Below, piece after piece: positions 1 through 14,330 of a DNA stretch of 14,330 nt; position 1 is the stretch's first letter, and each line of letters opens with the position of its first letter. A model generated the notes under the pieces. It was given only the letters and a program-made list of their open reading frames with translations, did no database searches and was not told where the DNA came from. Origin of the DNA: Thermodesulfobacteriota bacterium (GTDB lineage: Bacteria; Desulfobacterota; Dissulfuribacteria; Dissulfuribacterales; UBA3076); NCBI GenBank assembly GCA_003645605.1, contig QNAY01000004.1:1-14330 (forward strand), in the 5' to 3' direction. A program made the position numbers and the translations under genes.

Positions 1-773
1 GCACCGCTGATGGAGATATCTTCAAGCAAGGGATTGGCTATGGCCATCTGTACTGCCTCCAAGGCCCTGCGTGACCCTTTGGCAACACCTGTACCCATGA
101 GGGCCATCCCCATTTCAGCCGTGACAGTGCGAACATCTGCGAAGTCTACGTTTATATACCCTCTCAGGACTATGAGGTCTGAAATGCCTCTTACTGCATA
201 GTAAAGGACCTCATCTGCCTTTCGGAACATCTCCAGTATCGGAGTGTTGGGCTGGGCAAGGCTTCTGAGCCGATCGTTCGGAATGGTTATTATAGTATCT
301 ACAACATTTTTTAATTCTTCTATTCCCTCTTCAGCAACGCGAATTCTGCGTTTTCCTTCGAAGGAAAATGGTTTTGTCACTACTGCTACTGTAAGAGCAC
401 CCATTTCCTTACTGATTTCTGCAATAACAGGTGCCCCTCCGGTGCCGGTGCCTCCACCCATTCCGGCAGTAATGAAGACCATATCGCTTCCTTCCAGCAT
501 TGCCCTGATATCATCTATGCTCTCTTCTGCGGCTTCCCTGCCAATTTCAGGTTTTGCTCCTGCACCCAGTCCCTTAGTGAGTCCTCTACCCAGTTGGATC
601 TTTGTGCCGGCCTTGGACACTTCAAGGGCCTGGGAATCCGTGTTTGCAGCTATGAATTCCACACCCTTGAGTTCGGAGGCTATCATACTGTTTATAGCGT
701 TTCCGCCTCCACCTCCGACTCCAATTGCCTTTATTTTTGCAGTGAGTTTTGGCTCTATAAACTCAAAAGACAT
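1..773 (-). CDS. ftsZ: Cell division protein FtsZ (N-terminal part, runs off left edge)
   Basis: FtsZ is the tubulin-like GTPase that polymerises into the Z ring at the cytoplasmic face of the membrane and scaffolds the divisome. Reading leftwards from the ATG at 773 gives 257 codons with no stop; the 3' end lies outside the window. The start [20 protein letters not shown] leads into the first nucleotide-binding glycine loop, then NTDSQAL, and the tubulin signature GGGTGTG at about residues 106-112. The T7 synergy loop NVDFADV (Asp210 and Asp213) is intact, so both halves of the GTPase site are present. A GGAGG Shine-Dalgarno (783-787) lies 9 nt before the ATG. It follows ftsA by 23 nt, the usual last pair of the dcw cluster. 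The C-terminal FtsA-binding tail cannot be judged. Confidence 0.98.
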
Positions 774-782
774 ATGCTTAGT

Positions 783-787
783 CCTCC
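783..787 (-). promoter_or_regulatory. Shine-Dalgarno of ftsZ
   Basis: GGAGG on the minus strand, 9 nt before the ftsZ ATG and within the 23-nt ftsA-ftsZ gap. It fits the high FtsZ expression usual for this gene. Confidence 0.8.
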
Positions 788-796
788 AACCGGTTT

Positions 797-2020
797 TTAA
801 ATTTTAAACCATGACTTCATGCGAAGGGTTACCCTGTTGAATATATTCCCGTCTCTTATCCGGAATTTCTGTTGGGGCTGATGTTCCATGCCATAGAGCA
901 CAAGGCCTACAGCAGTGGCGAACATGGGTCCGTTGACCACGTCCACCAGGCCGGAAATCCGCTGTGGATAGCCGATTCTTGTCGGCAACTGGAATACCTG
1001 ATCCGCAATCTCGGCGATTCCAGGCAGAAGGGCGGAGCCTCCGGTTATAACCACCCCTGAAGCCAGTAGTTCTTTAAGTCCTGTCCGTTCTATTTCCTGG
1101 TCAACCAAGGTAAAGATTTCCTCCACTCTGGGCTCAAGTATTTCAGACAGGATGTGCCTGGACAAAAGCCTGGGTTGGCGTCCTCCCACACTGGGAACTT
1201 CTGTCATCTGATCTTTATCTACCAAAGAGTTGAGGCAGCTACCGTGGTCTATTTTTATTTGTTCAGCCTCTTTACCGGGTGTCCTTAACCCGACTGCTAT
1301 GTCATTAGTGAGGTTATTACCGCCAAGTCCCAGCACTGCTGTGTGTTTGATGGCGCTTTCAGTAAATAGAGCAAGATCCGTAGTGCCACCCCCAAAATCC
1401 ACAAGAGCTACCCCCAGGTCCTTTTCCTCCTGGGTTAAGACTGCTTCGGCTGAGGCAAGGGGCTGGAAAACTATGTCCACTACATCAAGCCCTGCCCGGT
1501 TTGCGCACTTGATAAGGTTCTGTGCAGCCGTAACCGCTCCTGTCACTATATGTACTTTGGCTTCCAGCCTTACCCCGGTTATTCCGACAGGATCCAGTAT
1601 CCCTCCCTGCTCATCCACAATGTACTCTTGTGGCAGAATATGTATGACCTCCCTATCAAGGGGTATGGCTACCGCCCTTGCCGCATCTATGACTCTGTCA
1701 ACGTCCTCCTGGGAGACCTCCTGGCCCTTTACAGCTATCACCCCATGGCTGTTGAATCCCTTTATATGGCTGCCGGCAATACCAATGAACACTGAGCCGA
1801 TTTCACACCCGGCCATGAGTTTGGCCTCTTCCATAGACCTCTGTATGGAATCGACCGTGTTGTCTATATTGACAACCACTCCCTTTCGGAGACCTATAGA
1901 AGGATAAGTCCCCACGCCTATAATCTCAGCACCCTTTTCGCTGATCTCACTCACTACCGTACATATTTTAGTAGTGCCGATGTCTAGGCCGACAATCATG
2001 TTACCGGGTTTCTCCACCAT
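797..2020 (-). CDS. ftsA: Cell division protein FtsA
   Basis: FtsA is the actin-fold ATPase that tethers FtsZ filaments to the membrane and recruits later division proteins. The 407-residue product has the usual family length. The N-terminal phosphate-1 loop reads [15 protein letters not shown], the second phosphate loop is [13 protein letters not shown], and the adenosine loop region is [12 protein letters not shown]. The extreme C-terminus, [14 protein letters not shown], is an amphipathic helix matching the FtsA membrane-targeting sequence. The start is well supported: AGGAGAGGAA (2021-2030) directly precedes the ATG at 2020. It lies 8 nt downstream of ftsQ and 23 nt upstream of ftsZ. No repeat insertion is seen in this gene, unlike ftsQ, murG and murF. 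Confidence 0.97.
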
Positions 2021-2028
2021 TTCCTCTC

Positions 2029-2874
2029 CTAATGTTTCAGACTAACCAGGGCCTGGCCGGGGCCATAATCCAAATCAACCTTAGCTGCTTTTTTATATGT
2101 TCCTGAGCGATAGAGTTGATACAGGACTTTTTCCGCCTTACTGAATTGGGCGCGGAGATTTTCAGTATCAAAGTGAAAAGGAATACCGTTGTCAGATGTA
2201 TAGAGTGTTAAGTTATCTTTCTTGGCTATGTCTATTTGGCTAATATTGTTTACACCCAGAGTTCTTGTGCCTTTACTTGCCATGGATATTAATTCCATGG
2301 CCTTTTGGATTTGGTGATTTGGTGATTTGGTGATTTGGTGATTTTTTATGTTTTCAGGGTCAATCCCGGTAATGATGGGAAGAGAGACCGGGTCTTCTGT
2401 TGAAAGTTTATCGATAATTTCACCTTGTTCATCAACCAAATACATTTTATCAGAATTCAACAGGGCTACCGGAGTACATTCTTTGATCGTAATAATCAGG
2501 TGATCCGGCAATTTTTTCTTAACTTTAACCGTATGGACCCAGGGATGTGCCTCTATGGACGTTGCAATTGATTTCAGATCGAGAGACAAAAGATTGTCTT
2601 GGGCGGTCACATCGCTCAGTTGCAAAACCTCCTCTTCTGTGACGCGATCGCAGCCTTTCACCAGGACCTGACAAACCCTGAAAAGATCAGATTGACTTGC
2701 CCAATGCCGACACATAAAAAAACCTACAAGCACAATGCACATTACGGCTATGCCGACCAATATTTTAGAATTGATAAGCCACGATATGGAAGATACCGGT
2801 TTGACAGACTTGGTCCGCGAGCCGGAGCTACGTGCTGAAGACCTGAATTCTGAAGACGGTCTTCTGATTTTCAT
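2029..2874 (-). CDS. ftsQ: Cell division protein FtsQ (POTRA domain), with in-frame repeat insertion
   Basis: FtsQ is a bitopic inner-membrane protein that, with FtsB and FtsL, links the Z ring to septal peptidoglycan synthesis. With the ATG at 2874 it has 281 residues: a basic cytoplasmic tail (1-36), one membrane helix (about 38-54), a POTRA domain (about 64-134, with the typical PWVHTVKVKKKLPDHLIITI stretch) and the periplasmic FtsQ beta domain. About 14 residues (near 177-190, [13 protein letters not shown]) are encoded by an 8-bp repeat tract, probably in a loop between beta-domain elements. The chosen ATG overlaps the murB stop as ATGA; an in-frame TTG at 2889 would add five residues but has no better ribosome-binding site. 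The family is sequence-diverse, and the call rests on domain order plus position between murB and ftsA. Confidence 0.93.
   Translation of the reverse strand: MKIRRPSSEFRSSARSSGSRTKSVKPVSSISWLINSKILVGIAVMCIVLVGFFMCRHWASQSDLFRVCQVLVKGCDRVTEEEVLQLSDVTAQDNLLSLDLKSIATSIEAHPWVHTVKVKKKLPDHLIITIKECTPVALLNSDKMYLVDEQGEIIDKLSTEDPVSLPIITGIDPENIKNHQITKSPNHQIQKAMELISMASKGTRTLGVNNISQIDIAKKDNLTLYTSDNGIPFHFDTENLRAQFSKAEKVLYQLYRSGTYKKAAKVDLDYGPGQALVSLKH
2309..2344 (-). repeat. 8-bp tandem tract inside ftsQ
   Basis: Four perfect ATTTGGTG units on the plus strand (2309-2340) plus ATTT. On the coding strand the tract reads CACCAAAT and encodes [11 protein letters not shown] without a stop. It lies in the periplasmic domain of FtsQ. 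Confidence 0.93.
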
Positions 2875-3776
2875 GTTTCCATACCCCAAATAGATACTTC
2901 CGGGACAAGTCCTACATCAGCCTCTTTTTTTACACGCTCTCTAATGATTTCCAGCAAGTCCATTACCTGTACGGCACTGGCTTTTCCACGATTTACAATA
3001 AAGTTCGCATGCTTTTTGGATACCTCAGCATCCCCGATTCTAAGACCTTTGAGTCCACATTGGTCTATGAGCTTTCCTGCTGAATCTCCCGGGGGATTTC
3101 TAAAAACGCACCCTGCGTTTGGTTTTCCTATAGGCTGGGTGGTTCTCCGTTTGCGCATCACGTTTCTGACATTGCGCTTGATCTGATCGGGGCTGCTTTT
3201 GTCAAGTTGAATTCTTGCGGCAGAGATAAGGGCCTTGTCCGGCAGTCTGAAAGACCTGTAATCAAATTGCAATTGATTTCTCTGGAACCAGCAACTCCCG
3301 TCCGGGCCTGTAAATTGTACAGCGTCTATCGCTTCCGCCATTGAGCACTTGTTAGTGCCGGCATTCATGGATATGGCCCCACCTACACTGGCCGGAATGC
3401 CGGAAAGATTCTCAAGACCACACAGGCTATTGTGTATGGACCAGGAAATAAGGGACTTCAACCTGCATCCTGCCTCTACAGACACTATTGTTTTAAAGGT
3501 ATGGCCGGGAGTGGAATGGATACGATTCAGGGCTGCCAGGGACATGACCAGCTTCACTCCTTTATCGCTGATCAACAGGTTGCTCCCCTGGCCCAGCACC
3601 TTATAGGATATAGAACGATTACCGAGATAAAAAATGGTATGTTCAAGGGCCTTCAAGGTCCGTGGAACCAGGAATAGATGCGCAGGCCCGCCTATGCGAA
3701 AGCTTGTTAGCGGTAAAAGCGGAACATTCTTGCGCACCTGAAGATCTTTTATCCTTTCCAGATCCTTAGAGAGCAA
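2871..3776 (-). CDS. murB: UDP-N-acetylenolpyruvoylglucosamine reductase MurB
   Basis: MurB is the FAD-dependent enzyme that reduces UDP-GlcNAc-enolpyruvate to UDP-MurNAc with NADPH in the cytoplasm. The FAD-binding part shows TSFRIGGPA (FRIGGPA 26-32), LGQGSNLLISD and SGIPASVGGAISMNAG. The substrate domain shows CVFRNPPGDSAGKLID and KHANFIVNRG. The residue in the proton-donor position is Cys223 (AGCVFRNP) where Escherichia coli has Ser229; cysteine here is also found in other MurB proteins, so activity is expected. I chose the TTG at 3776 because AAAGGAG lies 7 nt before it; this gives 301 residues and an 11-nt overlap with murC. An upstream ATG at 3821 would need a 56-nt overlap and adds residues with no family counterpart. 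Lying between murC and ftsQ is typical. Confidence 0.95.
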   Translation of the reverse strand: MLSKDLERIKDLQVRKNVPLLPLTSFRIGGPAHLFLVPRTLKALEHTIFYLGNRSISYKVLGQGSNLLISDKGVKLVMSLAALNRIHSTPGHTFKTIVSVEAGCRLKSLISWSIHNSLCGLENLSGIPASVGGAISMNAGTNKCSMAEAIDAVQFTGPDGSCWFQRNQLQFDYRSFRLPDKALISAARIQLDKSSPDQIKRNVRNVMRKRRTTQPIGKPNAGCVFRNPPGDSAGKLIDQCGLKGLRIGDAEVSKKHANFIVNRGKASAVQVMDLLEIIRERVKKEADVGLVPEVSIWGMET

Positions 3777-5160
3777 ACGCTGACTCCTTTGTCTTAAGCA
3801 TGTCCAGAATTTTTGGTCCAATACGCCCTATGGCACCGGCTCCAAGAGTCATGACCACATCACCCTCCTGCAGGCTTGGTACAATTGCATGAGGAAGGTC
3901 CTTGCAGGACTCCACATAGTGCACGGGTCCACCACGTTTATCCCTGATGTTTCTTGCCAGACGTTTTCCGCTGACTCCTACTATAGGAGTTTCACTGGCT
4001 GGATAGATTTCCGTCAGCCATAGTTCATCAGTTTCCCCGAAGGCCGTGGTGAAATCGTCCATTAATGTCTGGGTTCTGCTGTACCTGTGGGGTTCAAAAA
4101 GGACCACGAGCCGGCGTTCAGGCCAACATGCCCTGGCAGCCGATAGGGTGGCCTGTATCTCAGTAGGGTGGTGTGCGTAGTCATCTACTACTGTTACTCC
4201 CTCTGTTTCACCCAGTATCTCAAATCGTCTGCTTACGCCTTCATATGAAATAAGACCAGCCTGGATCTTATGAAAGGGTATCTCAAGTTCAAGCCCCAGG
4301 GCCATTGCAGCCAGGGAATTTCTTACATGGTGCAGCCCGGGGACCTTGAGTTGTATCTCGCCGAGTTCAGAGTTTTGCCACCAGGCATTGAAGGATACTC
4401 CCAGGCCTTCAAAGGTGATATCTCTGGCCTGCAGATCAGACTCAGGTCCTGTCCCATAAGTCATTACCCGTTTTTTTACTGCCGGGAGCATTTCTCTGAG
4501 GTAGGGGTCATCTCCGCAGAGTATGGCAAGACCATAGAAAGGGACTTTGTCTATAAAATCCAGAAAACACCGGATTATGGCATTCAGGTCTGTATAATAG
4601 TCCAGGTGTTCCTTGTCTATATTGGTTACTACAGCTATGCTTGGTGTAAGGCGCAAAAAGCTTCCGTCACTCTCATCGGCTTCTGCTATAAGGAACTCGC
4701 CCTGTCCCCAACAGGCATTGCTTCCCAGGCCATTCACCTTTCCTCCTATGATGACCGTTGGATCAAGTCCACCGGCGCGAAGCACAGAAGAAATCATAGA
4801 AGTCGTACTGGTCTTTCCATGGGCCCCAGCCACTGCTATGCCGAACTTCTTAAGCCGCATCAATTCCGCAAGCATTTCAGCCCTTGGTATGACCGGAATT
4901 TTGGCAAAATAAGCCCCCTGAACCTCAGGATTGTTTTCTCTGACAGCAGAGGAAATCACCACCACGTCGGCACCCTGAATATTTTCAGAAGCGTGGCCCC
5001 TGTAAATTGTGCCTCCCAGTTTTCTGAGAGACCTGGTGATTTCAGTCTCACGCAAATCAGAACCCGTGACTCTATATCCAAGATTAAGAAGGACCTTTGC
5101 AAGGCCGCTCATGCCTATTCCGCCGATTCCTACAAAATGCATATGTTGTTTTTTATACAT
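3766..5160 (-). CDS. murC: UDP-N-acetylmuramate--L-alanine ligase MurC
   Basis: MurC is the first Mur ligase; it adds L-alanine to UDP-MurNAc using ATP in the cytoplasm. The 464-residue protein has the three-domain layout: an N-terminal Rossmann-like domain (HFVGIGGIGMSGLA), a central ATPase domain with the MurC-type P-loop GAHGKTSTT (112-120) and TNIDKEHLDYY, and a C-terminal ligase domain with VDDYAHHPTE and FEPHRYSRT. GAHGKT rather than GTNGKT separates it from MurD and MurE. The ATG at 5160 overlaps the murG stop by 8 nt (ATGTATAA), implying coupling; no strong Shine-Dalgarno precedes it, and a second ATG at codon 7 is possible. No repeat insertion is seen inside the gene. Confidence 0.97.
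   Translation of the reverse strand: MYKKQHMHFVGIGGIGMSGLAKVLLNLGYRVTGSDLRETEITRSLRKLGGTIYRGHASENIQGADVVVISSAVRENNPEVQGAYFAKIPVIPRAEMLAELMRLKKFGIAVAGAHGKTSTTSMISSVLRAGGLDPTVIIGGKVNGLGSNACWGQGEFLIAEADESDGSFLRLTPSIAVVTNIDKEHLDYYTDLNAIIRCFLDFIDKVPFYGLAILCGDDPYLREMLPAVKKRVMTYGTGPESDLQARDITFEGLGVSFNAWWQNSELGEIQLKVPGLHHVRNSLAAMALGLELEIPFHKIQAGLISYEGVSRRFEILGETEGVTVVDDYAHHPTEIQATLSAARACWPERRLVVLFEPHRYSRTQTLMDDFTTAFGETDELWLTEIYPASETPIVGVSGKRLARNIRDKRGGPVHYVESCKDLPHAIVPSLQEGDVVMTLGAGAIGRIGPKILDMLKTKESAFAL
3784..3790 (-). promoter_or_regulatory. Shine-Dalgarno deciding the TTG start of murB
   Basis: AAAGGAG on the minus strand lies inside the last codons of murC and ends 7 nt before the TTG at 3776. 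It is one of the best SD matches in the operon and argues for the TTG start over the ATG at 3821. Confidence 0.75.
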
Positions 5161-6415
5161 GGTTACGTACTGTAGAACCTTTCAATGTATTAGTTTCTGT
5201 TTCAGAATATGAAAAAGTATGTCCGGCCATCTCTATCAGTGTAGAGGCTATCTCTGTAGCTGCCGTAGGTTTTCCAAGTTTTCGAGCATTTTCTCCCATA
5301 TTGATGAGCTTTTGGGGATTCTCCAGCAAAGACTGTATCTCTCCCGCCAGTTTTATAGCACCGATTTCTTCTTCTAGGAAGTATTTGGCAGCCCCGGCTT
5401 CAGTCAGTTCTCTGGCATTGGCATCCTGATGGCTGTCAGTTGCCCAGGGATATGGAATGAGGATCGAGGGCTTTCCCAAGGTTGTGAGCTCAGCCAGAGT
5501 ACCTGCTCCGGCCCGGCAGATAACCAAGTCTGCCCAGGAATAGGATTCACTAATGTTAGGGATAAATGGGGTCACTTTGGCCGGAATGTTTGCATCCTTG
5601 TAAAATTTCTCAACATGTGACACATCCAGCTTGCCGGTTTGGTGAATAATTTCCAAATGAAAACCGGATTGCCACAAAACCTGTATGGCCGAACCAGCAA
5701 GCCGATTCAGGCATCTGGCACCCTGACTGCCTCCCAGGACCAAGAGATTTAGTGATTTAGTGATTTGGTGATTTAGTGATTGAAATGTCCGTGTGGGTCT
5801 GTGTGGGTCTGTGGCTAATGATTTGGTGATTTGGTGATTTAGTGATTGAATTATGTTTTTCCGTATGGGATTTCCAGTAAAAATTACCCTGTTTTTTGGA
5901 AAGTATTTAACAGTTTCTTTAAAGCTCACAAACACTGTCTTTGCGAACCTGGAGGCCAAACGATTTGTGAGCCCGGGGATAAGGTTCTGCTCATGGAGGG
6001 CTGCGGGTATCCGCAACATTCGCGCTGCAAGAAGTGCAGGCCCGGAGACATATCCCCCGACGCCCAGTACCACATGAGGCCTGAATGATTTAAGCCACGA
6101 ACAAGCCCTGATCGTGGAGAAAGGAAGTCCAGCCAGAGAACGCATGGTTGCTGCAAGGCCTGAGCCCCTGAGAGGCCTTGTGTTCAGGATTCGGTAATCC
6201 CATTTACGCCCTGAGAGTGCTTTTTTTTCCACCGGGCGGCCTGTGCCTATCCACATAACATCTATACGGCCATGGGACTCCATGGCCTCAACTACGGCAA
6301 TTCCGGGAAAAACATGTCCACCCGTGCCACCACCAGCCACGACTAATTTGGTGATTGAGTGATTGGGGGATTGAGTGATTTGGTGATTTGGTGATTTGGT
6401 GATTGTTTTGTGCAT
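5153..6415 (-). CDS. murG: UDP-GlcNAc:lipid I GlcNAc transferase MurG, with two repeat-derived insertions
   Basis: MurG is the peripheral membrane GT-B glycosyltransferase that converts lipid I to lipid II. The core is intact: VVAGGGTGGHVFPG (GGGTGGH 28-34), VLGVGGYVSGPALLAA, HEQNLIPGLTNR, TGNPIRKN, LVLGGSQGA, and the donor-site stretch ICRAGAGTLAELTTLGKP with PYPWATDSHQ. Two segments are foreign to the family and encoded by repeats. The first is about 20 N-terminal residues before the first beta strand ([19 protein letters not shown]). The second is about 35 residues (near 189-223) between GNPIRKN and the strand LNLLVLGG, near the domain boundary. The start is uncertain: ATG 6415 has only a weak GAG upstream, and in-frame starts also exist at 6433 (ATG) and 6445 (GTG). 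An ftsW gene would normally precede murG but is absent. Confidence 0.94.
   Translation of the reverse strand: MHKTITKSPNHQITQSPNHSITKLVVAGGGTGGHVFPGIAVVEAMESHGRIDVMWIGTGRPVEKKALSGRKWDYRILNTRPLRGSGLAATMRSLAGLPFSTIRACSWLKSFRPHVVLGVGGYVSGPALLAARMLRIPAALHEQNLIPGLTNRLASRFAKTVFVSFKETVKYFPKNRVIFTGNPIRKNIIQSLNHQITKSLATDPHRPTRTFQSLNHQITKSLNLLVLGGSQGARCLNRLAGSAIQVLWQSGFHLEIIHQTGKLDVSHVEKFYKDANIPAKVTPFIPNISESYSWADLVICRAGAGTLAELTTLGKPSILIPYPWATDSHQDANARELTEAGAAKYFLEEEIGAIKLAGEIQSLLENPQKLINMGENARKLGKPTAATEIASTLIEMAGHTFSYSETETNTLKGSTVRNHV
5747..5850 (-). repeat. Composite repeat inside murG (unoccupied copy)
   Basis: On the plus strand: four ATTTRGTG units (5747-5778), ATTGAAATGTCC, two copies of the 10-mer GTGTGGGTCT (5791-5810), GTGGCTAATG, three more ATTTRGTG units (5821-5844) and ATTGAA. 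The block is 104 bp. It encodes about 35 residues between the two MurG domains. The same composite, in opposite orientation, occurs between mraY and murD, where a MITE-like element interrupts it. Confidence 0.9.
6346..6405 (-). repeat. 8-bp tandem tract at the murG N-terminus
   Basis: Seven units on the plus strand (6346-6401): ATTTGGTG, ATTGAGTG, ATTGGGGG, ATTGAGTG and three ATTTGGTG, plus ATTG. On the coding strand the tract is open and encodes about 20 residues just before the first beta strand of MurG. It is an imperfect inverted copy of the tract at 6491-6522. Confidence 0.92.
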
Positions 6416-6490
6416 ATATATATCTCGGCTCATAGTTAAATTCACAATCTGCTTGCATATGTATTTTTAAATAAATTCCCTTCTTAAAAT

Positions 6491-6522
6491 CACCCAATCA
6501 CTCAATCACCCAATCACCAAAT
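6491..6522 (+). repeat. 8-bp tandem tract covering the murD stop codon
   Basis: Four CACCCAAT-type units on the plus strand. On the murD coding strand it reads as GGTGATT-type units, which contain TGA, and it supplies the last seven or so codons and the stop of murD. The orientation is opposite to the tracts inside genes. Confidence 0.9.
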
Positions 6523-7919
6523 TCCCTGGTTGCTTCCTGAAAGGCCATGCCACGTTCTTCATAGTTTTTGAACATATCAAAGCTGGAGCAGGCCGGGGAA
6601 AGAAGTATGGCATCACCGGGCTCAGCCAGGGACGTTGCTTTCTCCACAGCTTTTCTCATAGTCTTTTTGCCGTTTTTTGTTCCAAGCACCTGGATAACAG
6701 GCATTACCTTACTTAGGACTTTTTCAAACGCCTTGGCCTCTTCGCCTATAACAATCGCACCACGAATATGCGCCTTTTTTGTGGCTTCGGCCAGGGAGGC
6801 ATAATTTTCACCCTTACTGCGGCCACCCACGATGAGCACTATTGGCTGATCTATGGACTCCAGCGCGCGAAGTACAGACGCGACATTGGTAGCCTTGGAG
6901 TCGTCATAATAGTCGATGCCCGCATTTTGAACCACCCACTGAAGTCTGTGATGTGCCGCTTTGAAGCTTTGGATAACAGACTGCACGGCACCTGCACCTG
7001 CACCTGCCAGGCGTGAAAGGAGTATGGCACAAGCCAGGTTTTCAATATTATGTCGACCCCTTGGGGACCAGCTTTCTAAGTCATATTCCTCCCATTTATT
7101 ATCAGGCCACATGATGTTGATTTTTTTCAAAGAGGTATCCGGCCCGGCCCCGGGAACTCCGGGGCGAAGCATCCCGAAGTAGAGCCTTCTGGCGCGTCCT
7201 CTGTCCTTCCACGTTTCCAGTTTCTTGTCGTCCATGTTGCGAATGGCCCAATCTTCAGGCCTTTGGAAGTCATAGATTGCTGCCTTGCTCTCTCCGTAGC
7301 TTTTGATGTCCTGGTAGCGATCAAGGTGATCCGGCGCAAGATTGAGCCATGCTGCTGTTTTGAACCTTGGAGGAGTGAAAGGAAAATATCTGGTCCTTGG
7401 GAAGTAATCCAACTGGAAGCTGCTAATCTCTAAAACCGCGATAGTTTCCTCAGTATGTTCTTCAATGAGTGCAGATAATGGTGTTCCAATGTTCCCAGCC
7501 CTTACATGGGGCACATTGGCCTTTTTTAGCATCTCATCCACAAGCATGGTAGTAGTGGTTTTTCCGTTTGTGCCGGTGATGCCGATTAGAGGTCCTTTCC
7601 AGAAGGATGCCGCAAGGGCCAGTTCTCCAACCACAGGGATGTTGGACCTGCGTGCTGCCTCAAGGGCAGGAATGTCAGGTGAAACACCAGGGCTAACCAC
7701 TATCAGGTCGGATGAAAGGCAGGTCTCTACCTTATGTTTTTTTGTCTCCACTCCGACGCTATTTTTATCACACCAGCCTGCCAGGCCCTTAGGCCACTTA
7801 TTCAGGGGATTCAAGTCACTGCACATGACTTGTGCCCCTTGAGAGACGAGCCATCCGGCAACCGCCCGCCCGGATACCCCCATGCCCAATATCGTTACTC
7901 TTTTGCCTTTCAGTTCCAC
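6498..7919 (-). CDS. murD: UDP-N-acetylmuramoyl-L-alanine--D-glutamate ligase MurD
   Basis: MurD adds D-glutamate to UDP-MurNAc-L-Ala using ATP in the cytoplasm. The 473-residue protein has the N-terminal domain KRVTILGMGVSGRAVAGWL, the P-loop [12 protein letters not shown] (GTNGKTT 116-122), the stretch VLEISSFQLD typical of MurD, LAPDHLDRY, and the C-terminal motifs VGGRSKGENY and LLSPACSSFDMFKNYEERG. Both ends of the reading frame lie in an 8-bp repeat: the GTG start at 7919 is the last three bases of an ATTGAGTG unit, and the last residues (FGDWVIE) and the TGA stop come from another tract at 6491-6522. The GGTGA of the upstream unit is the only SD-like sequence before the start. It follows mraY after a 229-nt gap carrying a MITE-like element. 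Confidence 0.96.
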   Translation of the reverse strand: MELKGKRVTILGMGVSGRAVAGWLVSQGAQVMCSDLNPLNKWPKGLAGWCDKNSVGVETKKHKVETCLSSDLIVVSPGVSPDIPALEAARRSNIPVVGELALAASFWKGPLIGITGTNGKTTTTMLVDEMLKKANVPHVRAGNIGTPLSALIEEHTEETIAVLEISSFQLDYFPRTRYFPFTPPRFKTAAWLNLAPDHLDRYQDIKSYGESKAAIYDFQRPEDWAIRNMDDKKLETWKDRGRARRLYFGMLRPGVPGAGPDTSLKKINIMWPDNKWEEYDLESWSPRGRHNIENLACAILLSRLAGAGAGAVQSVIQSFKAAHHRLQWVVQNAGIDYYDDSKATNVASVLRALESIDQPIVLIVGGRSKGENYASLAEATKKAHIRGAIVIGEEAKAFEKVLSKVMPVIQVLGTKNGKKTMRKAVEKATSLAEPGDAILLSPACSSFDMFKNYEERGMAFQEATREFGDWVIE

Positions 7920-7972
7920 TCAATCACCAAATCAGTAATTCATTAGCCACAGACACACACAGACATTTCAAT
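7917..7972 (+). repeat. Left part of the composite repeat, interrupted by the MITE-like element
   Basis: Two 8-bp units (7917-7932), then CATTAGCCACAGACACACAC and AGACATTTCAAT. It matches the composite inside murG read on the minus strand. The first unit contains the murD GTG start, and the second the only SD-like GGTGA before it. Confidence 0.85.
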
Positions 7973-8121
7973 GTAACTTCTCAATAAGTTCGGGCAAATC
8001 ATACTTTGCGGCTATCCACTAGATTCCGGCTTTCGCCGGAATGACGATTGGGTGTAAGCGCCTGTCATTCCGGCGAAAGCCGGAATCTAGTGACTGCTAC
8101 CCGGACTTATTGAGAAATTAC
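7973..8121. mobile_element. 149-bp MITE-like element with terminal inverted repeats and 8-bp target duplication
   Basis: The outer arms 7973-7994 and 8100-8121 match as inverted repeats at 20 of 22 positions (left end GTAACTTCTCAATAAGT). The inner arms 8017-8045 and 8064-8092 are a perfect 29-bp inverted repeat around an 18-nt loop. Each inner arm also folds alone (ATTCCGGC-TTTC-GCCGGAAT). The element is flanked by perfect 8-bp direct copies of ATTTCAAT (7965-7972 and 8122-8129). It has no coding capacity, so movement would need a transposase supplied in trans. It sits inside the operon between mraY and murD; no T-run follows the stem, so it is not a typical intrinsic terminator. Confidence 0.85.
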
Positions 8122-8145
8122 ATTTCAATCACCAAATCACTAAAT
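8122..8145 (+). repeat. Right part of the interrupted composite repeat
   Basis: ATTTCAAT (second copy of the 8-bp target duplication), CACCAAAT and CACTAAAT. It continues the composite from 7917-7972 and ends just past the mraY stop. Confidence 0.85.
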
Positions 8146-8148
8146 TCA

Positions 8149-9228
8149 TTATCTTAGCTTGAGCGTGCTGATTGCTACCAGCCCCAGCAATATAGAAATT
8201 ATCCAGAATCTCACAATGACCTTTGGTTCTTTCCATCCCTTAAGCTCAAAGTGATGATGGATGGGAGCCATACGGAAGATCCTCTTGCCTCCTGTTGTTT
8301 TGAAGTAAAAAACCTGAAGAATTACGGATAATGCCTCAACTACGAAAATTCCACCTACAATGACAAGCAGCATTTCCTGCTTTGAGAGAACGGCCACTGT
8401 TCCCAGGGCACCGCCCGCAGCAAGGGAACCTACATCTCCCATGAAGATCTCTGCAGGATAGGTATTATACCAGAGGAAACCCAAACCGGCCCCTACCATT
8501 GCGCCACAAAACACTGCAAGCTCTCCTGCGCCCGGAACCGAAGGAATCTGGAGGTACTGGGCAAGAGTCGAATGGCCGGCCAGATATGTAAACAGGGCGT
8601 AGACTGATGCAGCTATTATGAAAGGGCCGGTAGCAAGTCCGTCCAGACCGTCGGTCAGATTAACCGCATTGGAGGTCCCTACGACCACAAGCAGAGCGAA
8701 AACACCGTACATAATCCCGAGATCAGGCTGAAAGTTCTTAAAGAACGGGATACTAAGATGGGTATCCCACTTACCATGTGCGGCAATTATACACGCGGCT
8801 AAAAGTACAAAGACTGTCTGCCAGACGAGCTTCCACCTGCCGGACAGACCTGTGCTGTTCTGTTTTCTGATCTTCAGCAGATCGTCCGCAAGGCCTATTG
8901 TGCCGTAACCGACAAGAATTAAAATGCTTATCCATACGTACAGATTCCTTAGGTCGGCCCACAGGAGTGTGGCGACCAGGATGGACACAATGATTAATAT
9001 GCCCCCCATGCTTGGTGTCCCGGTTTTTGCATGATGATTTGCCGGCCCGTCGTCCCTGATGACCTGGCCCATCTGCATTGCACACATGCGTCTCATAAAC
9101 CAAGGTCCAAAAAACAATATTATTGAGAGGGCGGTAACAGCCGCATATATTGTCCTGAATGTGATGTAGCGAAAAACATTAAATATAGGCCACATATCGT
9201 GGAGGGGATATAGCAGATGAAAGAGCAT
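8149..9228 (-). CDS. mraY: Phospho-N-acetylmuramoyl-pentapeptide transferase MraY
   Basis: MraY is the polytopic inner-membrane enzyme that transfers phospho-MurNAc-pentapeptide to undecaprenyl phosphate, forming lipid I. The 359-residue length and the string of hydrophobic segments fit the ten-helix fold. Visible family motifs are the aspartate pair and following loop ([20 protein letters not shown]), [13 protein letters not shown], the Mg-binding stretch [17 protein letters not shown], and the cytoplasmic histidine loop [12 protein letters not shown] near the C-terminus. The ATG at 9228 starts 4 nt after the murEF stop with a GAGAGAGGAA stretch before it, so the genes are tightly coupled. 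The stop is directly followed by an 8-bp repeat tract and then the MITE-like element. Confidence 0.98.
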
Positions 9229-9232
9229 TAAC

Positions 9233-12200
9233 CTATTCCTCTCTCAGATGCCTGATAAGGGCATCCACAGCTCTCTCAAGGCCTATGGCCCGTGATCCCT
9301 TTACCAGTGTGGTTGCCGGGGAGGGCATGCAGTCAAGAGCGGCCGATTCCATCCAGGAAAGCAAATCCTCCGTATTGGGGAAGATACGAATAGCCTTTTG
9401 CGAAATACCGGCCTTTTGGGCGGTTTTGGAAACAGCATCCGCGAATTGGCCTACGAAGATTAGAAGATCAACCCCCGTATTTTCTGCAAGTCGTCCAAGA
9501 TCCTGATGGAAGTCGTAGGCCGCATCTCCGAGTTCCAGCATGTCTCCCAGGATCGCTATCTTTTTTTCGCCTTTGCTCCAAAGATCGAGAGTCTCAAGAG
9601 CCGCTCTCATGGAGCCTGGGTTTGCATTATAAGAATCGTCTATCAGCCTCCATTTAGGCCCAAGATTTTTCAGAAAAAGGCGGCCTGGAACCGGTTTTAC
9701 TTCCTCCAGCCCTTGCTTGATCCTGGCCGGTGTCAGCCCCACTGCATGGCCGGTAGCTGCGGCTGCAACCGCATTTTGCACATTTGTTCTTCCTATAAGT
9801 GGAAGATCAACAGAGAGTCTGCTTCCTGCAATATCCAGATCCAGCAAAGTGCCATGCCCGCCCGGGGTCCAGGACAGGCAGGTGATTTGGTGATTTGGTG
9901 ATTTGGTGATTTGGTGATTTGAAGATGGCAAGGCCTTTTGTCCCATGGAATAGCCCACTACCTGACACGTTAGATCTTTGGCCCCTTCCATCACCAGGGG
10001 GTCGTCAAGGTTCACCACTGCCACACCTGTTTGGGAAAGGGCTTTCCAAAGTTCCCATTTTTCCCTGGCTACTTGCTTTATATCCCCAAGGCCGACAAGG
10101 TGGGCAGGCTGTATGGTAGTAATAAGGCCCACTTGTGGCTTGGCAATTTCACACAGCCGGTGTATTTCTCCCGGTTGGTTCGTTCCCATTTCCAGCACTG
10201 CCCAGGAATCATCAGACTTGGCCGAAAGCAGGCTGAGCGGGAGTCCGATAAGGTTGTTAAAATTCCCAGGGGTTTTAGCCACTTTCCATTTTTTCCCCAT
10301 GATCGAGAAAATCAGTTCTTTTGTAGTGGTCTTGCCGCAACTGCCCGTAATGCCGACTACCTTGATTCCAAGGTGTTCCCTATACCATGCTGCGAAATCT
10401 CCCAGGGCCTTCAACGAATCCTGGACTTGCAGCAGGACTGGACGCCGGCGAAGGTCGAAATTCGTATGTCGAAATTCAAAGGTCGAGCTGACTACTGCGC
10501 CGATGGCCCCTTTTTTTATAGCGTCAAGGACAAAATCATGACCGTTGAAACGGTCCCCTGAAAGTGCCCAGAAAATATTCCCTTTTCTTACTGATCTGGA
10601 ATCTGTTGATATTCCGTGGATTGCTGTATCCGGGTCACCCGAAAGGACCATGGCTCCAATAGCTGTTGCCACCTGAGAAGCCTTTAATCGAAATCCCCGA
10701 CCCTCAGGATCCTCTACCTTCGACTCTTGTCTTTTATTCCTTGAACCTTGAACCCTGAACCCTGAACCTTGAATCTTGCGTTTTGCCCCAAAAGCCTCTT
10801 TCAATATTTCTCTATCGTCAAAGGCAAGTCGTTCGTTGCCGATTATCTGGTAGGTTTCATGTCCTTTCCCGGCCACGAGCAGACAGGCACCGGGCCGCGC
10901 TTTTTCTGCTGCCCATAAAATAGCGTCCCTTCTGTCTGGAATTACCTTCACTTCAGCTTTGTTTGCAGGGTGATGGGAAGGAAGGTCTCTGAGGCCGTTC
11001 AACATCTGATCGAGTATGGCAAGAGGGTCTTCAGTGCGGGGATTGTCCGAGGTCAGCACAACAATATCTGCCAGTGAAGCGGCTGCCTGCGCCATGAGAG
11101 GACGCTTGCCCCTGTCTCTGTCTCCTCCACAGCCGATTGCGCAAATCAGAGGCTTGGGCCCTAATCGAATAAGGCAGTTCAGAACACTTTCAAGGGCGTC
11201 AGGAGTGTGGGCGTAGTCTACAAGGGCGGTCACTCCCTGGGGGGTATGCACAGGATCGAGTCTTCCCGGAATACGCATTATTGATTCTATGCCGGTCTGA
11301 ATATGGTCGGGATCTATCCCAATGGTGATTGAAGTCGCTACTGCTGCAAGGATATTGTATAGATTGTGCAGACCTAGAAGCTTGGATTTTATGGAAACAG
11401 GCCCTTTGGGCGTGGCAAGCTTACCTGTTATTCCATCAATATTGATTGACTGGAACTCAGGTCTTACCCCGGCATCAGGACTGAGACCATAACTGATCTT
11501 TTTCCTTTGTAGTATCTCCCACAGGCGCCTTCCATACAAGTCATCAATGTTGATGATTGCCGTATCAGAGGGATACTCCAAAAACAATTTTACTTTGGCC
11601 TGGAAGTATTGTTCCATGTCTCTATGGTAATCCAGGTGATCGCGGCCCAGATTGGTAAAAATAGACGCAGCGAAACTGCACCCTGAGATCCTCTGCTGGT
11701 CAAGGGCGTGGGAAGATACCTCTAAGGCCACTGCCTTTGCCCCTTGCTCCGACATGTCGGCCAGGATCTCCTGCAGTTTTATGGCATCAGGGGTAGTGAG
11801 TTCAGAAGGTATCTCTATGCCCCAATGTCTCTGGTTTATAGTCCCGATTACACCAGGATTCAGACCGGCTTTACTGAAAATGCCTTCCAGGAGGTATGTG
11901 ATCGTAGTTTTACCATTAGTACCAGTGATGGCTATAAGGGCCATTTTTTTACTGGGATTTCCATAAAAGGCACTTGCCAGAAGACCGGTTGAAAGCCTGG
12001 GGTCGTCCACTCCTATAACAGGAAGTGCTCCAGGAACGGTCTTGACGTAACGATGGACATCTTGGTTTGGCATTAACAGGGCAGAGGCTCCTTTCACCAC
12101 GGCATCATTGATAAATTGTCTTCCATCAAGTTCAGTGCCGGGAATTGCCACAAATATATATCCCTGATTTACCTGCCTGGAGTCTGCGGATATGCCCTTG

Positions 12201-12301
12201 ATTTTTACGTCATCCAGCTTAGGTGATATAGAAGCAGCAGGTCTCAGCACTTCCAACATATCCCGCAATGTCCTTTCTTGCCGCATGTTACCAAACATCA
12301 T
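9233..12301 (-). CDS. murEF: Fused MurE-MurF: meso-DAP-adding and D-Ala-D-Ala-adding Mur ligases
   Basis: A single 1022-codon frame encodes two consecutive cytoplasmic Mur ligases. The MurE half (about 1-500) has the P-loop [10 protein letters not shown] (GTNGKTT 127-133), [20 protein letters not shown], and DNPRTEDP (DNPR 419-422), the motif specific for meso-diaminopimelate. The MurF half (about 533-1022) has [11 protein letters not shown], the P-loop [13 protein letters not shown] (GSCGKTT about 653-659), [14 protein letters not shown], and [11 protein letters not shown]. The linker (about 503-532) contains [12 protein letters not shown], encoded by a 7-bp repeat. A second repeat tract adds about 14 residues in MurF (about 794-807), and a third short repeat-like stretch encodes [10 protein letters not shown]. 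The start ATGATG overlaps the ftsI stop as ATGA. MurE-MurF fusions are known elsewhere, for example in Bordetella. Confidence 0.96.
9881..9920 (-). repeat. 8-bp tandem tract inside the MurF part of murEF
   Basis: GGTG followed by four perfect ATTTGGTG units (9885-9916) and ATTT on the plus strand. It is open on the coding strand and encodes [14 protein letters not shown] within MurF. Confidence 0.93.
10452..10486 (-). repeat. Short direct repeat inside MurF
   Basis: GTCGAAATTC occurs twice, 14 bp apart, followed by a third partial copy GGTCGAG. It encodes [10 protein letters not shown] in the N-terminal domain of MurF, about ten residues that look out of place between GAIGAVVSS and the strand PVLLQVQD. 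It is probably a third short-period repeat family. Confidence 0.55.
10741..10775 (-). repeat. 7-bp tandem tract in the MurE-MurF linker
   Basis: Five units of YTGAACC (the last is TTGAATC) on the plus strand. On the coding strand the tract has no stop and encodes [12 protein letters not shown], between the end of MurE and the start of MurF. Confidence 0.9.
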
Positions 12302-14055
12302 TTGCAGGTTATACTGCAGACCTTCACAGCCTTAAGAGGTGTTCCTGATCTTGGTTTCTGTGCGATCACAGTCCCTACACCTTTGAGTTTGGTGAAAATG
12401 CCTATGGATTGCAGAATATCCAAGGCCTGTCTTACGGATTTTCCCTTAAGATTCGGCATCCTGGAGAGTTCTTTTTTGGTCTCTTGGCTTTTCACTGTTC
12501 GCCATTTGTCTTTCAATGGTATCTGTGCAGCCTGTTTTACTACTATTAGTGCTCGCCCTAAAGTGCCCCGGCGTTCACGAGGATCAATTTTTACGCCGTC
12601 AAGCAAAACAATATAACTTACTTTAGGTGATTTGTCGGGCCAGAATCCCAGGGCGGTTACCTGGGCTGGAAATTGAGTGGATATCTGCTCAGACTGTTCA
12701 TTCCACCTGATGCTCGCAAGAGAAGGCCCTCCTCTGACCGCGAGGTTTTTCCGCAATTTTAGTATGAGCTCTTCTGTTAACCAGGGGATTTTGGTCTGCC
12801 TTTGGTCCTTCACAGAAGACTCGGATGTCAAGAATTCATCAGGGCTTTGTAAAGCTACATGTGGTGTCACCAATATATTCCCATTTATCAGGGCGGAGAA
12901 GGCCCTGAGAATCTGGATCGGACTGGCTGTAATACCCCGGCGCAAGAAGCAATTTCGTGAACTCGGCAGGGCTGAAGAAAGACTGCCTTGGCCTTCACCC
13001 GGAAGATCAATACCTGTAGACTGACCAAACCCCAGACCCCAGAGATCCCTTGACAGGCCGTCATAAGAGACAAAATCTTTCAGCTCCTGTTCAGCCCAGG
13101 GACTCCACAGGACCAGACCTTTACCCAAAGTCTCCCATTGCCACTTCCGGGCCATTTCGTCCAAAGACTGACCTTCTGATTTTGCCAGCTCACTTTGTTC
13201 AAACATCCAGTTCAAGAGAGGCGCAAGGACCATCAGGTCAACATTATCTTGCAGAGAGTAATTTGTAATATTCGTCGCAGGTAGTTCCCAAAAACGTTCC
13301 GGGTCCCAGGAAGGTTTGCTGGCAAGGGCAAGGATCTCACCGTTTTCAACACTCATTATAACAAGACAGCCTTTATCGGCCTTAAGCCTTTTCATCTGCC
13401 TGCCAAGCTCTTTTTCCGCTGATGACTGAATATTTTTTTCAAGGGTAAGCGTAAGTTCCTGTCCACCTGCGTGAATTTGTGACACATTAGTGTGGCTTAA
13501 AAGGCTGTCATATGTGTATTCAATTCCCTCAAGGCCCCTGCCGCCGTGATCGACAAATCCCAAAACCGGAGAAGCCAGTGAACCGCAAGGATATACCCTT
13601 TTATATTTTTCCGATATTTCTATTCCCTTAAGCCGCATGTCTTTCAGCTTCAGGCCTTGTTCTACGGAAATGCCGTCTTTTAGACGGATAACGCCCTGTT
13701 CCTCCGCCGGCAGTTTTGTCACAGCATTAGGATCAAGGCCAAGAATTTCTGATACCTGTGGTGCCCAATCATCAACTTGCGGCAACTTGGAAGGCCTTGC
13801 TAAGGCAGAGATTGTCTTTTGGCTTACGGCGAATATTGCTCCTGTCCTGTCAAGAATTATGCCCCTGCACAGAGGGCTTTGCCGGGAATAGTAGTCACGG
13901 CTCTGTTGTTGAGAAAGCCTGGACGAATCAATGTCATATTCGCTATTGACATTGTTGCTCTGCCAAAAGCAACCAACAAACGATGTGGTAATGATCAAAA
14001 ACCCAGCCAGGACAAAAAGGAACAAAATTTTCTTATCTTTATAAGGAAAACTCAT
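12298..14055 (-). CDS. ftsI: FtsI/PBP3-like protein with PASTA domain, apparently lacking all transpeptidase motifs
   Basis: Position and architecture match FtsI, the septal class B penicillin-binding protein: a signal-anchor helix (about 9-28 of 585 residues), the pedestal start RGIILDRTGAIFAVS, GLEGIEYTYD, the domain entry LVIMSVENGEILALASKPSWDP, GFGQSTGIDLPGE (342-354) and RRGITASPIQILRAF, then one PASTA domain (about 533-585). The catalytic residues are missing. By hand alignment with E. coli FtsI, the SxxK site (EPGSTVKP) reads DLMVLAPL, with Val276 for Ser and Pro279 for Lys; SSN reads WSP (317-319); KTG reads RWN (450-452). The region between the first and second motifs is also shortened. 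The frame is open throughout, so this looks like a maintained pseudoenzyme rather than a broken gene. I chose the ATG at 14055 (AGGTGA 11 nt upstream); an in-frame GTG at 14070 is possible. Confidence 0.88.
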   Translation of the reverse strand: MSFPYKDKKILFLFVLAGFLIITTSFVGCFWQSNNVNSEYDIDSSRLSQQQSRDYYSRQSPLCRGIILDRTGAIFAVSQKTISALARPSKLPQVDDWAPQVSEILGLDPNAVTKLPAEEQGVIRLKDGISVEQGLKLKDMRLKGIEISEKYKRVYPCGSLASPVLGFVDHGGRGLEGIEYTYDSLLSHTNVSQIHAGGQELTLTLEKNIQSSAEKELGRQMKRLKADKGCLVIMSVENGEILALASKPSWDPERFWELPATNITNYSLQDNVDLMVLAPLLNWMFEQSELAKSEGQSLDEMARKWQWETLGKGLVLWSPWAEQELKDFVSYDGLSRDLWGLGFGQSTGIDLPGEGQGSLSSALPSSRNCFLRRGITASPIQILRAFSALINGNILVTPHVALQSPDEFLTSESSVKDQRQTKIPWLTEELILKLRKNLAVRGGPSLASIRWNEQSEQISTQFPAQVTALGFWPDKSPKVSYIVLLDGVKIDPRERRGTLGRALIVVKQAAQIPLKDKWRTVKSQETKKELSRMPNLKGKSVRQALDILQSIGIFTKLKGVGTVIAQKPRSGTPLKAVKVCSITCK

Positions 14056-14080
14056 TCTGATCTCTATCACCTAAGTTGAG

Positions 14081-14108
14081 CTATTAGCCTTTAGCTGTTA
14101 GCTATTAG
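14081..14108. repeat. 7-bp tandem tract upstream of ftsI
   Basis: Four 7-bp units on the plus strand: CTATTAG, CCTTTAG, CTGTTAG, CTATTAG. It lies about 25 bp upstream of the ftsI ATG. It has the same design as the 8-bp and 7-bp tracts elsewhere in the window but a different unit. Confidence 0.8.
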
Positions 14109-14150
14109 TTTAATGATTACAGGATGTTTTACTATTACAAACTTTTACCC

Positions 14151-14190
14151 TGTTGAATTCAGCTTTGCTGCACCCTTTGGGGATTCAACA
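14151..14190. repeat. Palindromic element upstream of ftsI
   Basis: TGTTGAAT (14151-14158) and ATTCAACA (14183-14190) form an 8-bp stem. The interior can form smaller hairpins (CAGC-TTT-GCTG and CCC-TTT-GGG). No T-run follows on either strand, so it looks more like a dispersed palindrome than a terminator. Confidence 0.6.
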
Positions 14191-14247
14191 AAGTGAACCC
14201 GTTGGGGGTTATTTCTAATTAGTGTCTGAACGAAAACTAACCAAAAC

Positions 14248-14327
14248 TGTCATTTCGAGCAAAGCGAGAAATCTTATCGTACTGAAAATACAGGCATTAA
14301 AGATTTCTCCCTACGGTCGAAATGACA
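14248..14327. repeat. Inverted repeat of the GTCATTTCGA type
   Basis: Arms 14248-14275 and 14300-14327 match as inverted repeats at 24 of 28 positions around a 24-nt loop. The outer ends TGTCATTTCGA are identical. It resembles a miniature, non-coding palindromic element. Its right flank is at the window edge, so any target duplication cannot be checked. Confidence 0.8.
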
Positions 14328-14330
14328 AAA

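Follow-up and report, generated by a model that had tools for sequence, protein, structure and literature searches.

The division and cell wall (dcw) cluster on contig QNAY01000004.1 of a Thermodesulfobacteriota bacterium (assembly GCA_003645605.1, order Dissulfuribacterales of the class Dissulfuribacteria) encodes a homologue of the septal transpeptidase FtsI in which all three catalytic motifs are missing. The stretch analyzed, hereafter the window, comprises positions 1 to 14,330 of this contig. It is probable that the protein, an FtsI by descent and by place, is now a pseudoenzyme, which serves next to FtsQLB as a scaffold or regulator of the divisome, without catalysis, while another synthase builds the septum. 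The absence of ftsW, which concerns the whole genome and not just the cluster, goes together with this loss and is a point absent from the preliminary description of this DNA.

The reading frame of the gene is uninterrupted over the 585 codons first claimed for it and can be extended upstream to a GTG start (Table 1). Pfam recognizes the pedestal (PBP_dimer, 45.8 bits) and the PASTA domain (32.5 bits), in keeping with their description as intact, and gives a partial match to Transpeptidase (51.6 bits, profile positions 1–193 of 299). The structure prediction that had been proposed as a check supports the same architecture: residues 58–521 of the model match known FtsI/PBP3 structures, so that the FtsI fold is predicted to be kept, and the model and Pfam together place both the pedestal and the transpeptidase fold in the protein. 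The N-terminal anchor corresponds to a helix at residues 13–39 of the model, its membrane nature being read from the sequence. Scores against the NCBIfam equivalogs of FtsI/SpoVD fall below their cut-offs (TIGR02214, 143.7 bits vs. 688; PRK15105, 60.5 vs. 737).

VLAP, WSP and RWN, the replacements reported for the SxxK, SxN and KTG motifs, are found at exactly the bases given for them (13230–13219, 13107–13099 and 12708–12700). VLAP aligns on SxxK and WSP on SSN both in an alignment of 28 proteins from named records (5 of Dissulfuribacteria and 23 others) and in one with 34 FtsIs of the phylum that bear the motifs, and the shortening claimed between these two motifs is visible in the former. 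The third motif is ambiguous by a few residues. RWN (residues 455–457) falls on KTG by eye in the 28-protein alignment, the corresponding column reads IRW in the alignment with the 34 phylum FtsIs, and a profile-to-PDB alignment puts GPS on GKS (PSL = 12726–12718); all three registers lack a Lys at the place where KTG has one. The registers of the first two motifs are firm. The window protein would be expected not to bind β-lactams.

The same losses are found across the class. The FtsI homologue is found in 38 of the 41 genomes of the order. Among the remaining three, murE is cut at the contig start in G019, so that ftsI would lie off the contig; no murE–murF match is found in G024 (83% complete), and only weak Mur-ligase matches in G029 (66% complete). 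Motifs were read in 30 class members, those of the 38 matched genomes with loci given. None of them keeps the Ser or Lys of SxxK, none the Ser or Asn of SxN, and none has a Lys in the Lys column of KTG. Since the losses are identical in all 30, they exceed chance, and the orthologues, whose comparison had been suggested as a check on the three losses, show that the allele is not a decaying one. The first Ser of SSN is replaced by Trp in 25 of the 30 (W322 in the window), so the old active site has conserved new content and not random letters. When 22 class FtsIs (after 8 near-copies were dropped) are compared with the 34 phylum FtsIs, which were picked for bearing the motifs, so that their own motif score is no test, the near-invariant columns lost in the class cluster mostly at or next to the three motifs, and 47 other conserved columns are shared. 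No invariant Ser, Cys, Thr–Lys or similar pair that would replace the motifs was found in the class. It is well established by these columns that transpeptidase catalysis has been lost in the FtsI of Dissulfuribacteria.

The architecture around the dead domain varies. Several class members stop before PASTA. Two members of the genus and most of family f9 have lost the greater part of the pedestal (approximately window residues 95–150) and keep the dead transpeptidase domain (loci L009, L010, L014, L015, L018, L020, L023, L025–L027 and L030).

FtsW belongs to the SEDS (shape, elongation, division and sporulation) proteins, recognized by PF01098. None of the 10 class clusters in which both murD and murG are visible has a SEDS gene between them. 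In searches of whole genomes, a single PF01098 match is obtained for 40 of the 41 genomes of the order and for 45 of the 46 of the class; G010 has none. In 38 of 40 genomes, no more than 400 bases separate this SEDS gene from an intact gene for penicillin-binding protein 2 (PBP2); the two are far apart on one contig in G015 and on different contigs in G034. By NCBIfam cut-offs, the lone SEDS protein of the window genome is RodA and its neighbor is PBP2; the search for a second class B PBP with intact motifs, also suggested beforehand, is thereby answered in the affirmative. No cognate FtsW was found in the window genome (1.91 Mb in 390 contigs, 83% complete, the window being contig 4), nor in a closed relative of the same class (G014, a single contig of 2,025,450 bases), whose operon reads mreB–mreC–PBP2–RodA. 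In each of 10 mre-type loci (from f25, f28, f35, f39, f63 and G014) the SEDS gene adjoins PBP2 and scores higher as RodA than as FtsW; mreC is present in all 10 and mreB in 8. This gene content establishes that FtsW has been lost in the class and that the only pair of SEDS protein and class B PBP is RodA–PBP2 in the mre operon. With FtsW gone, the role known for a catalytically dead FtsI, activation of FtsW, is ruled out here.

Selection on the gene, which the preliminary description had proposed to measure, speaks for a retained protein. Between the window and G006, the ratio of nonsynonymous to synonymous substitution rates (dN/dS) of ftsI is 0.236, within the range of eight other dcw genes (0.094–0.278), of which murE-murF, murB and ftsQ exceed it. 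Six full-length members of the genus give 0.24–0.40 for ftsI, and in all 15 of their pairs the transpeptidase domain (0.15–0.34) is more constrained than the pedestal (0.28–0.85); in some pairs the PASTA or N-terminal part is lower still. At the level of sequence, the FtsI scaffold and the place of its gene are demonstrably kept under purifying selection, which fits, without showing it, a structural need in divisome assembly.

Much of the remaining division machinery has been retained. The window encodes FtsZ (cut), FtsA and FtsQ; mraZ, rsmH and an ftsL-like gene precede ftsI in 10 of 10 class stretches, the ftsL-like protein scoring below its NCBIfam cut-off (25.5 vs. 42.45); and DivIC/FtsB exceeds the cut-off in 34 of the 41 genomes of the order. 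By this inventory, the class retains the FtsQLB–FtsA–FtsZ frame and has lost the FtsWI synthase. Of the 41 genomes, 39 have a match to a class A PBP, a single one except in G012, which has two. Together with the intact PBP2, this enzyme supports the earlier proposal that cross-linking is done by another enzyme.

A further open reading frame (ORF) matching PF00905, of 303–487 aa, occurs in 20 of the 41 genomes (two matches are weak and one is cut by a contig end). Of the four such ORFs read (L185–L188), those submitted to Pfam (L185, L187 and L188) have a Transpeptidase domain and no dimerization domain. These three encode proteins of 410–471 aa in which SxxK- and SxN-like motifs can be made out by inspection (L185:1686–3098, L187:1463–2692, L188:1606–2913). 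As a general septal replacement this third transpeptidase was rejected, for it is not seen in, for example, f4 or f10.

Over the phylum (118 genomes sampled), SEDS matches occur in 113 genomes, most of them with two, and 64 dcw stretches were read. Outside the ftsW-less groups there are 41 stretches, 35 of which show both ftsW and ftsI. SxxK and SSN are present in all 35, and K(T/S)G in 34, G092 having KTA. Another four show ftsW only, ftsI lying off the stretch; in G081 neither is visible, and G075 has an intact FtsI on a stretch without ftsW, in a genome with two SEDS matches. ftsW is missing from the remaining 23 stretches, of which 17 carry a motif-less FtsI (10 of Dissulfuribacteria, 4 of f25 and 3 of f28) and 6 a short ORF in the ftsI slot (f39, f35 and f63) that the search does not recognize as FtsI. 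The slot protein of Thermodesulfobacterium geofontis (G143, f39) has 333 aa and a weak PBP_dimer match, and PASTA was not found in it by Pfam; those of f35, of about 250–270 aa, still match PASTA (E 6.6e-6 and 0.012). The two SEDS matches of the closed f25 genome G059 come from a single broken RodA next to PBP2, of which they are overlapping parts; G159 (f25, 99% complete) has no SEDS match genome-wide.

Some further observations were made on these loci. Slot proteins of the Thermodesulfobacterium type (333–340 aa; L254:2684–3682, L258:3152–4171, L259:10145–11152) have a pedestal-like start and no recognizable transpeptidase domain. The RodA of G059 is split into two overlapping frames at L302:4589–5784. 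In f63 and f35, an ORF of 267–270 aa lies between murD and murG (L257:4694–5500, L260:5109–5909, L261:5087–5896); rich in hydrophobic stretches, it appears by its sequence to be a membrane protein. It is not claimed as a pseudo-FtsW, Pfam giving no match and hhalign against SEDS a probability of 0.2% (with only 3 and 7 sequences).

A quick IQ-TREE analysis of 61 taxa and six dcw genes gives a tree of these genes and not of species, with uneven composition, that joins f25 to Dissulfuribacteria and needs four label changes, of which its starred branches force at least three; FastTree recovers the same four groups. The approximately unbiased (AU) test does not reject a single clade (p 0.149). Repeated independent loss is thus favoured and not shown, at least three changes being forced while the AU test allows a single origin. 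The chances are about even that several lineages (Dissulfuribacteria with f25, f28, f39 and f35/f63) divide by FtsZ–FtsA–FtsQ without FtsW, an FtsI that is dead or reduced to a membrane anchor and one small domain serving as the non-enzymatic subunit, with a conserved surface that brings in or gates either a class A PBP or the single RodA–PBP2 pair.

From the kept fold, the selection and the gene inventory we infer a scaffold role for the dead FtsI. It would still associate with FtsQLB, which connects it to FtsA and FtsZ, and as a structural or regulatory subunit it would place or gate another peptidoglycan synthase at the septum, passing the division signal to it. Once FtsW, the polymerase served by FtsI, was lost, catalysis would have been free to decay, the binding surfaces staying under selection. 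The septal synthase would most likely be the single class A PBP and otherwise RodA–PBP2, the former being favoured by a modest margin. A number of points weigh against this model. It leaves the septal synthase unnamed, and the incomplete window genome (83% complete) yielded neither a class A PBP nor an FtsB-like gene, the former being missed in G029 as well. The precedents for a structural FtsI are reported to work via a SEDS partner, which is lacking here (PMC12713402). In addition, the slot protein is much shorter elsewhere (333 aa in Thermodesulfobacterium, about 250–270 aa in f35) and the pedestal is mostly deleted in G002, G007 and most of f9, both of which also fit slow decay.

In a rival model, a lone RodA–PBP2, shared by elongation and division, makes the septal wall and the dead FtsI is its adaptor to the divisome. 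This is a tentative possibility, as no other intact pair of SEDS protein and class B PBP was found in the class, f25, f28, f35, f39 and f63, and a class B PBP is the normal partner of a SEDS polymerase. However, the pair sits in the usual elongation operon in every mre-type locus read, and nearly all genomes of the order have a class A PBP, an enzyme able to polymerize and cross-link alone and with a septal precedent in C. difficile. The graded shortening across the phylum and the repeated pedestal deletions in the class would instead suit a neutral relic, whose catalysis was lost with FtsW and whose remainder is decaying without function. This is unlikely: the frame is open, a dN/dS near 1 was looked for and not seen, the ftsI value lying within that of its eight dcw neighbors, the dead domain is more constrained than the pedestal in every pair, class-specific residues are conserved at the former active site, and the gene is missed only at a contig-end cut or in genomes 83% and 66% complete.

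It is improbable, too, that the protein is a peptidoglycan sensor or wall tether, acting via PASTA and a closed-off pocket and unrelated to FtsQLB. PASTA is indeed kept, and it is the recognizable part of the much shorter f35 slot proteins, but Thermodesulfobacterium keeps the pedestal side instead, several class members end before PASTA, and the dead domain itself is conserved. The predicted fold would also allow an active transpeptidase with unconventional residues, which is very hard to credit given that the class has no invariant residue or pair in place of the motifs. An assembly or binning artefact might be suspected in an incomplete assembly of 390 contigs; it is refuted by the same gene and gene order in the closed genome, as also in records L092–L095, and its likelihood is negligible.

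Compared with FtsI/PBP3 of P. aeruginosa and E. coli and PBP2 of N. gonorrhoeae, the window protein is alike in fold (residues 58–521), dcw place, N-terminal helix and pedestal; it differs in lacking all three motifs, in its genome without FtsW and in the class-specific residues W322 and Y486. PBP 2B of B. subtilis is reported to have a structural function that does not depend on its catalytic activity (PMC5656894): without its active serine it is likewise catalysis-free and structurally needed, another PBP doing the cross-linking. That mutant, however, was engineered and has FtsW as its partner, whereas here the state is natural to a class without FtsW. The vegetative septum of C. difficile is described as made without FtsW–FtsI, with a class A PBP as the synthase (PMC10693644), a likeness that includes a single SEDS pair of elongation type; there, however, the dcw-encoded SpoVD/SpoVE are active, for sporulation, and here the dcw FtsI is dead and the cluster has no SEDS gene. 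FtsBLQ is reported to hold PBP1b repressed until FtsN acts (PMC6325244). Within the same phylum, ftsW has been reported absent from four Desulfobulbaceae genomes, cable bacteria included (PMC7873302); FtsI is listed there as a division protein making septal wall, and motif loss goes unmentioned in the accessible parts of that report. No published report of a motif-less FtsI in the phylum was found among open-licence papers, at the level of titles and abstract openings. The absence of ftsW in four Desulfobulbaceae was known already, and what appears new, by this literature search, is the class-wide dead FtsI.

The placement expected of an FtsI by descent is found, with murE-murF directly 3′ in the window and ftsL 5′ in class relatives. 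In the window itself no ftsL was found in the 260 bases upstream of ftsI (14080–14330), up to the contig end, for which an insertion or a contig break is a possible reason. The murE-murF fusion is seen in 11 of 13 class clusters read and is split in L174 and L180. Tandem arrays of an 8-base unit (AATCACCA / TGGTGATT) occur in the window at 2305–2343, 5751–5847, 6366–6404, 6488–6526 and 9881–9927, with 17 pattern matches vs. 0.00 expected from shuffling. Some fall within ftsQ, murG and murF, others at the ends of genes or between genes, and they encode in-frame peptides; a change of copy number within these essential genes could shift the frame.

Table 1. Features of the ftsI homologue and the surrounding dcw cluster, in window coordinates
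Feature	Position	Strand	Remarks
ftsI homologue without transpeptidase motifs	12298..14070	-	open frame, 590 aa from GTG 14070; alternative ATG 14055 gives 585 codons
Predicted N-terminal membrane helix, residues 13–39	13954..14034	-	helix in model; membrane nature judged from sequence
Pedestal (PBP_dimer) region, residues 69–205	13456..13866	-	Pfam PF03717 at 69–174, and model
Dead transpeptidase domain, residues 206–520	12511..13455	-	partial Pfam PF00905 at 234–420, and structural match
VLAP (281–284) at SxxK position	13219..13230	-	alignments
WSP (322–324) at SxN position	13099..13107	-	alignments
PSLASIRWN (449–457), KTG motif region	12700..12726	-	register uncertain; no Lys
PASTA domain region, residues 535–589	12304..12468	-	Pfam PF03793 at 537–581
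murE-murF fusion, 1022 aa	9233..12301	-	directly downstream of ftsI
mraY	8149..9228	-	
murD	6498..7919	-	
52-base murD–murG gap, expected ftsW place	6446..6497	.	no SEDS gene
murG	5153..6445	-	
murC	3766..5160	-	
murB	2871..3821	-	
ftsQ	2029..2889	-	
ftsA	797..2020	-	
ftsZ 5′ part, cut by contig end	1..794	-	PF00091, 176.7 bits

FtsW and FtsI are regarded as the universal core of septal wall synthesis (PMC10693644). A natural, class-wide dead FtsI in the absence of FtsW sets the structural role of FtsI apart from its enzymatic one and from the activation of FtsW, and annotation of the gene as an active FtsI would be wrong across the whole class. The window genus is probably Seep-SRB2, partners of methane-oxidizing archaea, so that the finding bears on an environmentally important group. 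The question is made testable by Dissulfurimicrobium hydrothermale, a cultured, non-pathogenic member of Dissulfuribacteria with a closed genome, the type strain Sh68T of which is described as a motile short rod (PMC8780430). If the proposed role is true, another synthase could take the place of FtsWI in the divisome, and the function for which FtsI is selected would be separable from transpeptidation and from FtsW.
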